This document shows positions 8,352 to 53,116 of a stretch of 53,116 nucleotides of DNA, one piece after another. The stretch's first letter is position 1; each line of letters begins with the position of its first letter. Location: NCBI RefSeq assembly GCF_002843425.1, contig NZ_NKXO01000026.1, positions 1 through 53,116 on the forward strand. The letters are read 5' to 3'. The notes under the pieces are model-generated. The model was given only the letters and a program-made list of their open reading frames with translations. It did no database searches and was not told the origin of the DNA. A program made the position numbers and the translations under genes. The stretch comes from Raineya orbicola (GTDB lineage Bacteria; Bacteroidota; Bacteroidia; Cytophagales; Thermonemataceae).

Positions 8352-9637
8352 TTGACAAGCGTTTTAGGGTCGTAGGCATCGCGTAAGCCATTCCCTAATA
8401 AATTGAAAGCAAGCACTAAAAGACAAATCGCCATACTCGGATAAAAAATCAGATGCACTCCCAAACCTGTATCCGAGCCAATGAAATCTTTGCCTTCGGA
8501 AACCATCATTCCCCACGAGGGCGTTGGTGGTTGAGCACCCATTCCTAAAAAGCTCAACCCTGCTTCGGTAAGAATAGCGGCGGCAAAATTTGAGCTAATC
8601 ATCACAATCAGCGGACCAAAAAGGTTAGGCAAAATGTGCCTGAACACAATACGGAAATTGCTCAAACCCAAAGCACGAGCCGCTTCAATATACTGCTTTT
8701 CCTTGATAGCCATAATTTCGCCACGCACCAAGCGAGCAATTTCTACCCAAGTGGTAAGTCCCAAGGCAATAAATGCCCCCAAAACCCCTCTCCCCAAAGC
8801 CAAACTAATGACAATCACCAGCATAATTTGCGGAATAGACCACACGATAGTCATTAGGAAATTGATAGCATAATCTATTTTCCCACCAAAAAAGCCTGCA
8901 AGCGAACCCAAAGTTACCCCCAATATCACGGAAATAAATACTGCCACCAACCCAATTCCCAAAGAAATTCGCGTGCCTAAAATCAGACGGCTAAGCAAAT
9001 CTCTGCCCTGTTTATCTGTACCCAAAAGAAAAGTACGTTTTTCAATATTTTTTTGCTCAAACTCGCTGATAATTTCAGCCTTAGTGGTCTGATTGATTTT
9101 TCCCTCGTAATCAATATAAAAAACCTTTTCTCCCTCCGTATAATAGGGCTTCCCATTGAATTTTTCTGCATTAGATAGATTTTTAAGCCCATTCAATTCA
9201 CCTACATACAAAGACTTTACCGCAGCAACAAGGCTGTATTTTTCCTTCTTGGGCGAATCGTCTTTGTTAGTTACCCCTTCCATAATGTAGGTAACTTCCA
9301 AAGTTTCTCTATTCACCTGATAGCTTTTGATAGGTACAATGGTGTATTCGCTAGGCAAGCCAAAAAGCATTTTTTCAAAAAACGAAGGCTTGTGTTGAGG
9401 AATATTTTTATGCTTTTTCAGAAAAGTAACTTCATAGCCCGGGGGTTTGAGCTTTACATATACCGAGCCGTCATCGGCATTAGGTGTACTATCGGGCATT
9501 ATCAAATAGCCCAAAATAGCCACAATTACCGCAATAATTACCACCACTAAGCCCGCAACAGCAGTGATATTGCTAAAAAAACGCTTCTTTACGTAATATC
9601 CGGGCGAATGATGTACTTCTTCTTTTACAGCTTGCAT
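8348..9637 (-). CDS. ABC transporter permease, OppC/DppC type, with large extra loop
   Basis: 429 residues, longer than the usual 280-300. A first membrane helix (about 25-47) is followed by an insertion of roughly 140 residues, then the usual OppC core beginning LLGTDKQGRDLLSRL, several membrane helices, and the ATPase-contacting EAA loop (EAARALGLSNFRIVFRH). It ends in 'NLLGNGLRDAYDPK', a typical OppC tail. The insertion should lie in the periplasm. The family imports peptides, nickel or other solutes with an OppB partner, ATPases and a binding protein. None of these is in this window, so the partners must be encoded elsewhere. Confidence 0.9.
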   Translation of the reverse strand: MQAVKEEVHHSPGYYVKKRFFSNITAVAGLVVVIIAVIVAILGYLIMPDSTPNADDGSVYVKLKPPGYEVTFLKKHKNIPQHKPSFFEKMLFGLPSEYTIVPIKSYQVNRETLEVTYIMEGVTNKDDSPKKEKYSLVAAVKSLYVGELNGLKNLSNAEKFNGKPYYTEGEKVFYIDYEGKINQTTKAEIISEFEQKNIEKRTFLLGTDKQGRDLLSRLILGTRISLGIGLVAVFISVILGVTLGSLAGFFGGKIDYAINFLMTIVWSIPQIMLVIVISLALGRGVLGAFIALGLTTWVEIARLVRGEIMAIKEKQYIEAARALGLSNFRIVFRHILPNLFGPLIVMISSNFAAAILTEAGLSFLGMGAQPPTPSWGMMVSEGKDFIGSDTGLGVHLIFYPSMAICLLVLAFNLLGNGLRDAYDPKTLVK

Positions 9638-50951: not shown

Positions 50952-51008
50952 GCTAAATCGGATAGTTTCTTGAACTTTTTCCATACGAATAAAGTTATTT
51001 TGTAAATG

Positions 51009-51098
51009 TTGCAACGGGGTGCTTTGAAAGGCTTACTTTCAAGGCTGAGAATATACCCGAAACACCTGATGTGGATAATACCAACGAAGGGATTGCAA
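51009..51098 (+). promoter_or_regulatory. Thiamin pyrophosphate (TPP) riboswitch
   Basis: All landmarks of the THI element are present in order: P1 strands TTGCAA (51009-51014) and TTGCAA (51093-51098), GGGGTGC from 51016, a variable P3 hairpin (GAAAGGCTTACTTTC), the pyrimidine-binding CTGAGA (51045-51050), ATACCC (51053-51058), and the pyrophosphate side ACCTGATGTGGATAATACC with AACGAAGGGA (to 51092). It senses TPP. An intrinsic terminator 36 bases later (51134-51164) completes a transcription-attenuation design. The promoter should lie about 50970-51000; TTATTTTG at 50991-50998 is a partial match. Confidence 0.95.
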
Positions 51099-51133
51099 AT
51101 TGAAACGTGCCTTTGCATATTCAAATAGCATTT

Positions 51134-51164
51134 GCCCTTGTTGGTCCAGACAAGGGCTTTTTTT
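51134..51164 (+). terminator. Riboswitch-controlled terminator
   Basis: GCCCTTG (51134-51140) and CAAGGGC (51151-51157) form a 7-bp perfect stem around a 10-base loop, followed by seven T. It lies between the TPP riboswitch and the methyltransferase ATG (51185), so bound TPP should favour it and stop transcription. Confidence 0.9.
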
Positions 51165-51184
51165 ATTTACAACCTTCATCATTT

Positions 51185-51913
51185 ATGGAAAATACATCAA
51201 ACACCAAATTATCTGTTCTTATTCCTGCTCATTGGCAAAGTTGGCAGAATCGCCCTGAATGGTTTTTTAATCGTCAGCATACCGATACTTACGAGCTTTG
51301 GTACGAAGGACGCTACAAAAGAGCTGAAATTTGGCAAAAAAAAGTAATGGAACAATTAGTTTCCAAAGATAAACGTATAAAAACTTTACTGGAATTTGGC
51401 TGTGGAACAGGACGTTTTACGCGTTGGTGGAAAGATATTGGCATTGAAGCCACAGGAGGCGATATTTCACCTTTGATGCTTTCACAAGCTCTGCAACTCT
51501 TTGACGGCGACCTTGTAATGGCAGACTCTCACCATATGCCTTTCAAAGACCATACCTTTGATGCACTTGCTTTCATTACAACTTTTGAGTACTACAAAAA
51601 ACCTGTGCAGGTTATTCAGGAAGCGGCAAGAGTAGCCAAATACGGTATCGCAATGGGAATGATGAATCGCAACTCCTTAAAAGTAGTTCGCAGACGCATA
51701 CAACAATTTTTCGGTAAAAATCCTTTTTACGTTACGGCTACTTTCTACACTCCGCAAAAACTTATCAAAATTATTGATACAGCCCTCAAAGGACGAAATT
51801 ATAGCATTGAATGGACTTGTACAGGTCTGCCAAAATGGTTTCCTGTTCAGCAGTGGGGCTTGCCTTATGGCGATTTCTTTGGTTTATATGTGCAATTTAA
51901 CGATGTAGCTTAA
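51185..51913 (+). CDS. Class I SAM-dependent methyltransferase under TPP control
   Basis: 242 residues from the ATG at 51185 (MENTSNTKLSVLIPAHWQSW), since any earlier start would fall in the terminator. Motif I is LLEFGCGTGRFTRWW (about 69-81), followed by TGGDISPLML, 'VMADSHHMPFKDHTFDALAFITTFEY' (motifs II-III and the region of UbiE-type enzymes). The N-terminal 60 residues with WYEGRYKRAEIWQ are not typical. Substrate unknown. It directly follows a TPP riboswitch and is two bases from the PurM-like gene, so both are probably tied to thiamin metabolism. Confidence 0.88.
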   Translation: MENTSNTKLSVLIPAHWQSWQNRPEWFFNRQHTDTYELWYEGRYKRAEIWQKKVMEQLVSKDKRIKTLLEFGCGTGRFTRWWKDIGIEATGGDISPLMLSQALQLFDGDLVMADSHHMPFKDHTFDALAFITTFEYYKKPVQVIQEAARVAKYGIAMGMMNRNSLKVVRRRIQQFFGKNPFYVTATFYTPQKLIKIIDTALKGRNYSIEWTCTGLPKWFPVQQWGLPYGDFFGLYVQFNDVA

Positions 51914-51915
51914 TA

Positions 51916-52971
51916 ATGGAAAAGCATTTAGGAAAAGTTGAACAGAATTTTTTAGAAAATGTAATTGCCAAACAATGTGGTGCAGAGCAGGCGAGTTTGC
52001 GAGTAAAACCTCAATTTGGGGTAGATGTGGCGGTTATTGAGCTTGCAGGCGGTCAGGTGATGGCTATTACCAGCGACCCGCTCTCGCTTATTCCTTCTTT
52101 GGGGCTTGCCGAGTCGGCTTGGCTTTCAGTGCATTTGCTTGCTAACGATATGGCAACGACAGGCTTTTCGCCTATGTTTGCCCAATTTGTCTTAAACTTA
52201 CCTGATTGGTTTTCTAAAAGCGATTTTCAGACTTACTGGGGGCATATTCATCAATTTTGCAAAGAAATAGGCGTCGCTATTACAGGCGGGCATACGGGGT
52301 TTATTGAAGGACAAAATTCTACCATTGCAGGCGGTGGCACTTTTTGGAATTTCTGCCCTGCTGACCAAATTCTCACTACCACTCAATTACGCGAAGGAGA
52401 TGTGATTTTAGTTACTAAGCAAAGTGCCATTTCATCGGTAGCCATTTTGGCAATGAGCTTTCCGCAGACTATTCAAAATAAACTTGGTAAAGAAGTTCAG
52501 CAGAAAGCCGCTGAAATGTTCTACCAAACCAGTTCCTTAAAAGATGCTCTTGCGGCAAGTAACGGCAAACCGCAATCCGAGGGCATCTCTGCTATGCACG
52601 ATGTAACCGAAGGAGGCATTTTAGGAGCTATCTATGAAATGGTATCCGCCGCCGATAAAGGTGTTTTAGTCTATGACAATAAAATCCCCGCCGATGAAAC
52701 CATAAAGGCTGTTTGCGGTTTGTTTGAATTAGACTACCGCTATTGTGTGGGTGCGGGTTCTATGATTATTGCTTGCTCACCTGAAAAGGCAGAAAGCATT
52801 AGCAAACGCTTGCAAAGGGAAAATATCCCCTGTACGCAAGTAGGTGAAGTGAAAAACAAAAGTTTCGGTAAAAAATTACTGCAAAACGATAAACTGCTGG
52901 ATATGCCTTACTTTGATACAGACCCTTACTGGCAAGCGTTTTTCAAAGCCCTGCAAAGTGGTTGGAAGTAA
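51916..52971 (+). CDS. AIR synthase (PurM)-like protein, closest to the HypE type
   Basis: 351 residues. The PurM-like ATP-binding fold is indicated by FGVDVAVIEL, AITSDPLSLIP, LLANDMATTGFSPMF (Asn-Asp metal site), GVAITGGHTG and, in the second half, AMHDVTEGGILGAIYEMVSAADKGVLV, which resembles HypE and related proteins. ThiL, the thiamin-monophosphate kinase, has the same fold, but the second half looks less like it. The C-terminal Cys of HypE (PRICG) is missing; the chain ends YFDTDPYWQAFFKALQ. No hydrogenase gene is near. Under a TPP riboswitch, a thiamin-linked kinase or ATP-dependent step is my inference. Confidence 0.85.
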   Translation: MEKHLGKVEQNFLENVIAKQCGAEQASLRVKPQFGVDVAVIELAGGQVMAITSDPLSLIPSLGLAESAWLSVHLLANDMATTGFSPMFAQFVLNLPDWFSKSDFQTYWGHIHQFCKEIGVAITGGHTGFIEGQNSTIAGGGTFWNFCPADQILTTTQLREGDVILVTKQSAISSVAILAMSFPQTIQNKLGKEVQQKAAEMFYQTSSLKDALAASNGKPQSEGISAMHDVTEGGILGAIYEMVSAADKGVLVYDNKIPADETIKAVCGLFELDYRYCVGAGSMIIACSPEKAESISKRLQRENIPCTQVGEVKNKSFGKKLLQNDKLLDMPYFDTDPYWQAFFKALQSGWK

Positions 52972-53116
52972 AAATTTTGCGGTTTTTATCAATATGACCG
53001 CCAAGTTATGAATTAGTGGATATTGACGGCGTTTAATTTAACAAAATTAAGAAAGATTTCATCATTAAGAAAATCCTTATTGTTTTTTTGTGAGGTATAA
53101 AAAAAATACTTATAGC
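52972..53116. other. Right-edge sequence without recognised feature
   Basis: 145 AT-rich bases after the PurM-like gene. I see no gene start, no terminator and no clear promoter, so the end of this operon is not resolved. Confidence 0.5.

Follow-up and report, generated by a model that had tools for sequence, protein, structure and literature searches.

Why should a riboswitch for thiamin pyrophosphate (TPP) precede genes for a methyltransferase and a PurM-like protein? The question is raised by the end of a 53,116-nucleotide stretch of DNA from Raineya orbicola (the window, by which we mean the whole stretch analysed), which is contig C26 (NZ_NKXO01000026.1) of a 3.07-Mb genome (G000) that is 99.76% complete. 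A first-pass annotation, made from the letters of the window, had described the two genes as a riboswitch-controlled pair. We find that the locus is half of a four-gene operon, MT-PM-TE-ZR, and that its other half lies on contig C20 of the same genome, so that the pair is in fact two members of a larger unit. With moderate confidence we propose that this is a TPP-repressed vitamin B1 acquisition operon, predicted to convert, probably, an imported vitamer into thiamin monophosphate (TMP) for ThiL. Its presence in species without the usual B1 genes points to an undescribed way to obtain or process the vitamin.

The riboswitch and the four genes that follow it

At the gathering score, the TPP riboswitch is the sole Rfam match within the 53-kb window (Table 1). 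Scoring the Rfam TPP model was a check that the annotation had itself suggested; the aptamer passes it, with limits wider than the 51009-51098 first given. Both start codons had been placed correctly: MT opens with the ATG at 51185, and the ATG of PM (51916) follows two bases past the end of the MT reading frame (51913). A 15-base inverted repeat, TTGGCGGTCATATTG, lies at 52990-53004 beyond PM and recurs in the opposite sense at L172:113-127 on C20, just before TE. Probably an insertion element has split the operon of G000 between PM and TE, its repeats causing the break in the assembly. The same 15-mer is also found in a genome of another family in the order (L040, 13633-13647).

Carriers of the operon were found through PM, in 390 genomes of the order to which the host belongs and in a phylum-wide profile search of 395 genomes. 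PM is present in 33 of the 390 order genomes (E value 1.5e-90 or better, except in the sister genome G004, where contig ends split PM) and in 13 of the phylum sample. Three of those 13 had already been counted; of the ten new carriers, one belongs to another order of the class and nine to one family outside the class. All four genes were found in each of the 43 carriers, and the ten new ones have them in the same MT-PM-TE-ZR order. PM stands directly after MT in 43 of 43 (with MT upstream on the same strand in 31 fetched regions, G004 and the window), and TE and ZR come after PM in 42, G000 being the genome with the two on a separate contig. Clustering of the neighbours of 33 loci gave TE and ZR as conserved downstream genes, the next cluster reaching only 6 of the 33; ZR was first seen in 28 of 32 loci, and a translated search recovered the remaining four. 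Three loci of family f43 (L195, L196 and L197) have about 240 bases or more without a clear gene between TE and ZR, which are tightly spaced elsewhere.

The riboswitch recurs together with the genes. It scores over the cut-off upstream of MT in 32 of the 33 order carriers and 9 of the 10 others (41 of 43), and the tenth carrier outside the order has a sub-threshold aptamer of 47.8 bits, which brings the count to 42. Because the riboswitch-MT-PM order recurs in 41 of the 43 PM carriers, its association with the operon is not a matter of chance; a search for this order in other genomes was a further check that the annotation had named, and it too came out in its favour. Genome G367 (contig C4) has a second, partial MT of 135 residues at L119:992-1396, 78% identical to the window MT and preceded by a separate TPP riboswitch, which looks like a duplication of switch and first gene.

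The MT and PM trees intermix families f11, f13 and f20 (G004, whose PM is split, was left out of the PM tree), and the distances of the four proteins correlate with one another (Mantel r of 0.77-0.87 over 28 genomes). The scatter of the three families in both trees therefore suggests that the operon has been transferred horizontally between lineages as a whole unit. MT had no match among plasmids, and a one-sequence search of genome contigs matched only a Raineya metagenome-assembled genome. In the literature searched (open-licence papers only), we found no description of an MT-PM-TE-ZR operon.

Table 1. Coordinates of the riboswitch, its leader elements, the operon genes and the flanking element. 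Positions are those of the window unless a contig is named.
Feature	Position	Strand	Evidence or remark
TPP riboswitch aptamer (RF00059)	51005-51109	+	cmscan 67.3 bits against a gathering score of 54.3; full length
Predicted antiterminator, 5' strand	ACCAAC 51080-51085; AAGGG 51087-51091	+	Within the 3' part of the aptamer; ligand-free fold
Intrinsic terminator	51134-51164	+	Perfect 8-bp stem and seven T; 5' arm overlaps the antiterminator 3' strand
MT, gene 1: class I S-adenosylmethionine (SAM) methyltransferase, 242 residues	51185-51913	+	Pfam Methyltransf_11, 66.4 bits
PM, gene 2: PurM/HypE/ThiL-fold protein, probably an ATP-dependent enzyme, 351 residues	51916-52971	+	AIRS_C 74.5 bits, AIRS 41.6 bits
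Probable end of an insertion-sequence (IS)-like element	52990-53116		Inverted repeat 52990-53004; contig stops at 53116
TE, gene 3: ThiE-derived barrel	Contig C20, L172:132-752		Very start of the contig
ZR, gene 4: Trm112-like	Contig C20, L172:756-1031		After TE

Between the aptamer and MT lies an intrinsic terminator composed of GCCCTTGT (51134-51141), an 8-base loop, ACAAGGGC (51150-51157) and seven T (51158-51164). The annotation had found this terminator and its perfect stem, which it counted as one base pair too short (7 bp). A loose terminator scan of 2.6 kb at the locus returned six terminator-like sites, against 3.6 (standard deviation 1.9) in shuffled sequences, and this one has the longest stem and a full T run. 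The minimum-energy fold of the ligand-free leader, which is better in energy than 200 of 200 dinucleotide shuffles (z = -3.65), pairs 51080-51091 with 51135-51145, including the 5' arm of the terminator, and the pairing is kept in a longer fold. In G004, which belongs to the same genus, both antiterminator strands are identical except for one base, and the terminator stem is kept, with its first pair changed from G-C to A-T. The antiterminator proposal follows from the window fold and this near identity in G004, a general test of complementarity being mostly null.

From these alternative in silico folds we infer an attenuator layout for the window leader. With little TPP, 51080-51091 in the 3' part of the aptamer would pair with 51135-51145 and transcription would go on; with TPP bound, the aptamer would retain 51080-51091, the terminator would form and the operon would be off. 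Across the operon loci, the loose scan matched 18 of 42, three of which (L067, L192 and L194) overlap the aptamer or a coding region, and credible terminators are present in at most 15 of the 42.

Thiamin genes of the carriers and the four operon proteins

Thiamin families were searched in 38 genomes, namely the 33 order carriers and five non-carrying relatives. No order carrier has ThiC, and none has a ThiE over the TIGR00693 cut-off, the only notable ThiE-family gene in each being TE. ThiG above 300 bits is found in 0 of the 33 carriers and, among the 38 genomes, only in G006 and G007; ThiD above 300 bits is likewise found in 0 of 33, and only in G001, G006 and G007. The canonical biosynthetic set at full strength (ThiC, ThiG, ThiD and ThiE) is missing from all 33, including the window genome, for which the annotation had proposed a check of the host's thiamin genes. 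ThiL is over the cut-off in 38 of 38 genomes, where it scores 280-342 bits (314 bits in the window genome).

No genome of the order combines the operon with ThiC. Of the 390 genomes, 116 have a ThiC match (112 over the cut-off), all of them among the 357 non-carriers and none among the 33 carriers (Fisher p = 9.6e-6, uncorrected for kinship), and genera g36, g77 and g94 each contain both species with ThiC and species with the operon. All 33 order carriers have a further TPP site ahead of a TonB receptor, and these receptors belong to one family; the site is below the cut-off in G049 and G307, and the G066 receptor shares only 28% identity with that of the window genome. The TPP scan scored at most 74 candidates in a genome, and weak sites may escape it. 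None of the TPP sites fetched from carriers precedes thiC, and G006 and G007, which are relatives with ThiC, have one TPP site each, before the thi operon.

PM is a member of the PurM/HypE/ThiL/SelD superfamily both by its AIRS and AIRS_C domains and by its whole-chain fold. Its predicted model (mean predicted local distance difference test score, pLDDT, 89.7) best matches HypE (Z 33.5, root-mean-square deviation (rmsd) 2.8, 321 residues aligned), followed by ThiL and SelD (Z 28.4) and archaeal aminoimidazole ribonucleotide synthetase (Z 22.6). PM nevertheless stays below the equivalog cut-offs of HypE, ThiL, SelD and PurM by wide margins, scoring 64.4 bits against the ThiL model TIGR01379 (cut-off 184.15) and 75.8 bits against the HypE model TIGR02124 (cut-off 251.6). 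When seven PM sequences were aligned with ThiL of E. coli and the genomes' own ThiL, the ThiL motifs GGDT and GGEDYEL proved changed or missing in PM (GGHT, GAG). The PM consensus ends in GWK, and none of the seven has a C-terminal Cys, which we take to be a feature of HypE. We rejected PM as HypE on its score and its C-terminus, and as a TMP kinase replacing ThiL because canonical ThiL is present in all 38 genomes tested.

TE, of about 215 residues, matches PF02581 at 88-106 bits in four proteins scanned. Its predicted model (pLDDT 94.7) superposes on B. subtilis ThiE (Z 23.8, rmsd 2.3, 202 residues aligned) and on TenI (Z 22.4, rmsd 2.3, 193 aligned), which are thiamin phosphate synthase and thiazole tautomerase, respectively. 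Against the ThiE equivalog TIGR00693 (cut-off 145.1) it scores 85-116 bits, below the cut-off in 33 of 33 carriers. We aligned 8 of the 33 TE proteins with canonical ThiE from five sources: E. coli, G001, G006, G007 and B. subtilis. All 8 TE retain the GGI loop and residues equivalent to Gln57, Asn92 and His107. By contrast, Arg59, Lys61, Asp93, Asp112 and Lys159, which we take to be the residues of ThiE that bind hydroxymethylpyrimidine pyrophosphate (HMP-PP) and Mg in B. subtilis numbering, are replaced in 8 of 8 TE and kept in 5 of 5 canonical ThiE; Arg59 has become Trp, Lys61 is Asn or His, and Asp93 is Asn or, in three, the milder Glu. The mutant entries 3o16 and 1g4p, as numbered in the available text of PMC3144219, fix the positions of Lys159 and Ser130. 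New invariant residues have appeared in TE (Cys126, Cys137, Asp82, Thr104 and Asn107), and Cys126, Cys137 and Asp82 are present in 31 of 31. TE is a derivative of ThiE/TenI that has lost the pyrophosphate/Mg residues, and the equivalog cut-off and the active-site residues led us to reject it as an ordinary ThiE. Because one operon member is of the ThiE family, the view of the first-pass annotation that the riboswitch controls no known thiamin genes is only partly right. MT and PM reach no equivalog cut-off (NCBIfam, in the case of MT).

Of the three large members, MT varies least: its mean pairwise identity is 76% (33 orthologs), against 55% for PM and 42% for TE. It carries an invariant EFGCGT stretch, which we take to be a SAM motif. 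The 18S rRNA guanine-N7 methyltransferase, a Trm112 partner of solved structure (presumably Bud23), is only a distant relative of MT (E value 3e-6). ZR has about 90 residues and matches PF03966 over the cut-off in the two proteins scanned. Its closest solved relatives are the short Trm112-like structures 6zxw and 6f5z (E values 6e-13 and 8e-10), which we assume to be archaeal. ZR differs from archaeal Trm112 in being longer and bacterial, and the two scanned proteins score 58.6 and 65.1 bits against the archaeal Trm112 model NF038101, below its cut-off of 77. Its CPxD-X23-CxxC pattern fits the archaeal Trm112 signature [C/D]PX[C/D]X19-36CX2C given in the available text of PMC5372719. From their shared operon we infer that MT may work with ZR as its Trm112 partner.

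Vitamin B1 acquisition weighed against other roles

Several observations support the acquisition of B1 as the role of the operon: the riboswitch stands upstream of MT in 41 of 43 carriers, the canonical genes are missing, and ThiL and a TPP-switched TonB receptor are present in 33 of 33 order carriers. The constant gene order, the distribution of ThiC in the order, the altered residues of TE, the Trm112 signature of ZR and the apparent movement of the operon as a unit count in its favour as well. The riboswitch and the missing genes also bear out the earlier suggestion of a thiamin-linked function that is hard to place, such as salvage or the replacement of a missing step. In the mechanism that we propose, a B1 vitamer would enter through the co-regulated TonB receptor, ZR would activate MT in the manner of Trm112, and MT, the ATP-using PM and the phosphate-binding TE would act in series on the vitamer to yield TMP, which ThiL would convert to TPP. 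The methylated or damaged precursor suggested by the annotation is one of several candidate substrates. TE more likely handles a ligand of the thiazole-phosphate or TMP type; it is not expected to join HMP-PP to thiazole phosphate, because the pyrophosphate/Mg site is gone. PurM-fold enzymes use ATP to activate amide or formyl oxygens, and ring-opened thiamin bears an N-formyl group. ATP activation of the N-formyl oxygen of ring-opened thiamin is a possible logic for PM.

This arrangement can be compared with known TPP regulons. A survey of 255 genomes sorts such regulons into biosynthesis and transport; of the lineages near the present one, the available portion of its taxon table names Bacteroidaceae and Chlorobiales (PMC3766115). 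The TPP regulon of B. thetaiotaomicron, as far as the available text of PMC5613172 describes it, comprises thiSEGCHF-tenI, OMthi and pnuT-tnr3. The carriers resemble it in having TPP riboswitches before thiamin genes and a putative outer-membrane transporter, and differ from it in that MT-PM-TE-ZR stands in place of the biosynthetic operon.

A number of observations weigh against the acquisition reading. At the regulatory level, the window antiterminator, scored as plain complementarity, does not rise above shuffled sequences (87 of 300 reached it), and among 11 loci with a terminator only L051 shows an unbroken complementary stretch, shared by aptamer and terminator 5' arm, that clearly exceeds shuffles (2 of 300). 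G049 lacks a riboswitch at the operon, and its MT closely follows another reading frame. The thiamin families searched were ThiC, ThiD, ThiE, ThiG, ThiL and TPK, and the carriers covered were the 33 of the order. Partial ThiG-family matches of about 23-28 bits, in 14 of the 33 carriers, pass the Pfam cut-off of 23, and partial ThiD-family matches of up to 64 bits, in 24 of the 33, pass the Pfam cut-off of 27. We read these weak matches as probable related families, such as sugar kinases. The catalytic domain of TPK is present in 11 of the 33 carriers, all 11 in family f11, and 241 of the 274 order genomes without ThiC are also without the operon. In G003 and G005, which belong to one genus, ThiL and a TPP-switched TonB receptor are accompanied by no PM, ThiE or TPK match. 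The operon is therefore not the sole way to feed ThiL, and these two genomes, having neither operon nor TPK, weaken the idea that cells without TPK depend on the operon for all their TMP. Because they keep ThiL without matches to ThiC, ThiE or TPK, their TMP must come either from outside or from a thiamin kinase that has escaped recognition. Finally, the Trm112 partners described in the available text of PMC5372719 methylate tRNA, rRNA or protein, not vitamers.

Other roles were weighed on the same evidence. The operon might build TMP, or one of its halves, by a biosynthetic route not yet described that replaces ThiC, ThiD, ThiG and ThiE, with PM as a PurM-type, ATP-driven ring closure, MT as the methyl supply and TE as a ThiE- or TenI-like step. 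The absence of ThiC and of full-strength ThiD, ThiG and ThiE from the 33 order carriers speaks for such a route, as do the descent of TE from ThiE/TenI, the ring-closing ligase known among PurM-fold enzymes, and the fact that none of the 390 genomes has both operon and ThiC, a pattern that holds within g36, g77 and g94 too. We still think it unlikely: three catalytic proteins are few for making both heterocycles from primary metabolism, TE no longer has the HMP-PP site, and all 33 carriers retain a TonB receptor under a TPP switch, whereas G006 and G007 show only the TPP site of their thi operon. A more specific proposal of this kind is a new route to thiamin phosphate without ThiC, ThiD, ThiG or canonical ThiE, in which PM would carry out an ATP-driven cyclisation of the PurM kind (for example, closure of a thiazolium ring on an N-formyl precursor), a bacterial MT-Trm112 pair would provide a methyl group, and a rebuilt ThiE barrel with two invariant cysteines would complete TMP for ThiL, the whole spreading horizontally with its own TPP switch; we rate it as rather unlikely.

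If the riboswitch served only as a sensor of shortage, the operon could instead help the cell to cope with scarce TPP without making any, through a TPP-independent bypass or an adaptive modification. The known Trm112 partners, which act on the translation apparatus in the available text of PMC5372719, would suit such a role, and so would the high conservation of MT relative to PM and TE, as if it were bound to a conserved partner. Yet the descent of TE from ThiE indicates a ligand resembling thiamin, and within the order no genome with ThiC has the operon, so we consider a shortage response quite unlikely. The placement of a methyltransferase next to ThiE- and ThiL-like proteins, and the apparent horizontal spread of the whole unit, would also be in keeping with the making or inactivation of a methylated thiamin analogue, as an antivitamin or as protection from one; this strikes us as improbable, in that repression by TPP suits acquisition better than toxin production and no further neighbouring gene is widely conserved. 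Lastly, the lack of an aptamer in G049 and the apparent splitting of the operon by an IS-like element in G000 could mean that the riboswitch has no regulatory role here and lies beside the genes by chance or as a decayed remnant. That is very improbable, and we reject a chance neighbour on conservation: the aptamer is kept upstream of MT in 42 of 43 carriers, across families and classes.

Genomes are commonly scored as B1-auxotrophic when genes such as thiC, thiG and thiE are absent. If the operon makes or rescues TMP, some genomes so scored may not be auxotrophic, and models of vitamin exchange for Bacteroidota would need revision. The operon also offers, in MT, a candidate partner for a bacterial Trm112 protein, the function of which is called unknown in the available text of a 2017 review (PMC5372719). 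With a defined set of four proteins and a predicted regulatory ligand, the missing chemistry is directly testable.

Further TPP sites

Beyond the sites at the operon and the TonB receptor, five carriers (L113, L121, L138, L139 and L140) have a third, weaker TPP riboswitch (41-50 bits) before a PnuT-like permease gene, which is followed in these five loci by a gene for an acyl-CoA-dehydrogenase-like flavoprotein; this may be one more enzyme under TPP control. At L116:6349-7469, G356 has a TPP site ahead of genes for a PnuT-like permease and a NadR-like P-loop kinase (like those of the five loci, these names were read from the sequence), and the kinase is a candidate thiamin kinase for genomes that have ThiL and lack TPK. 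The same genome has tandem TPP aptamers upstream of its TonB receptor gene, 107 bases apart at L115:8918-9014 and 9122-9216 (C36:73917-74013 and 74121-74215), one of them just under the Rfam cut-off at 52.2 bits.

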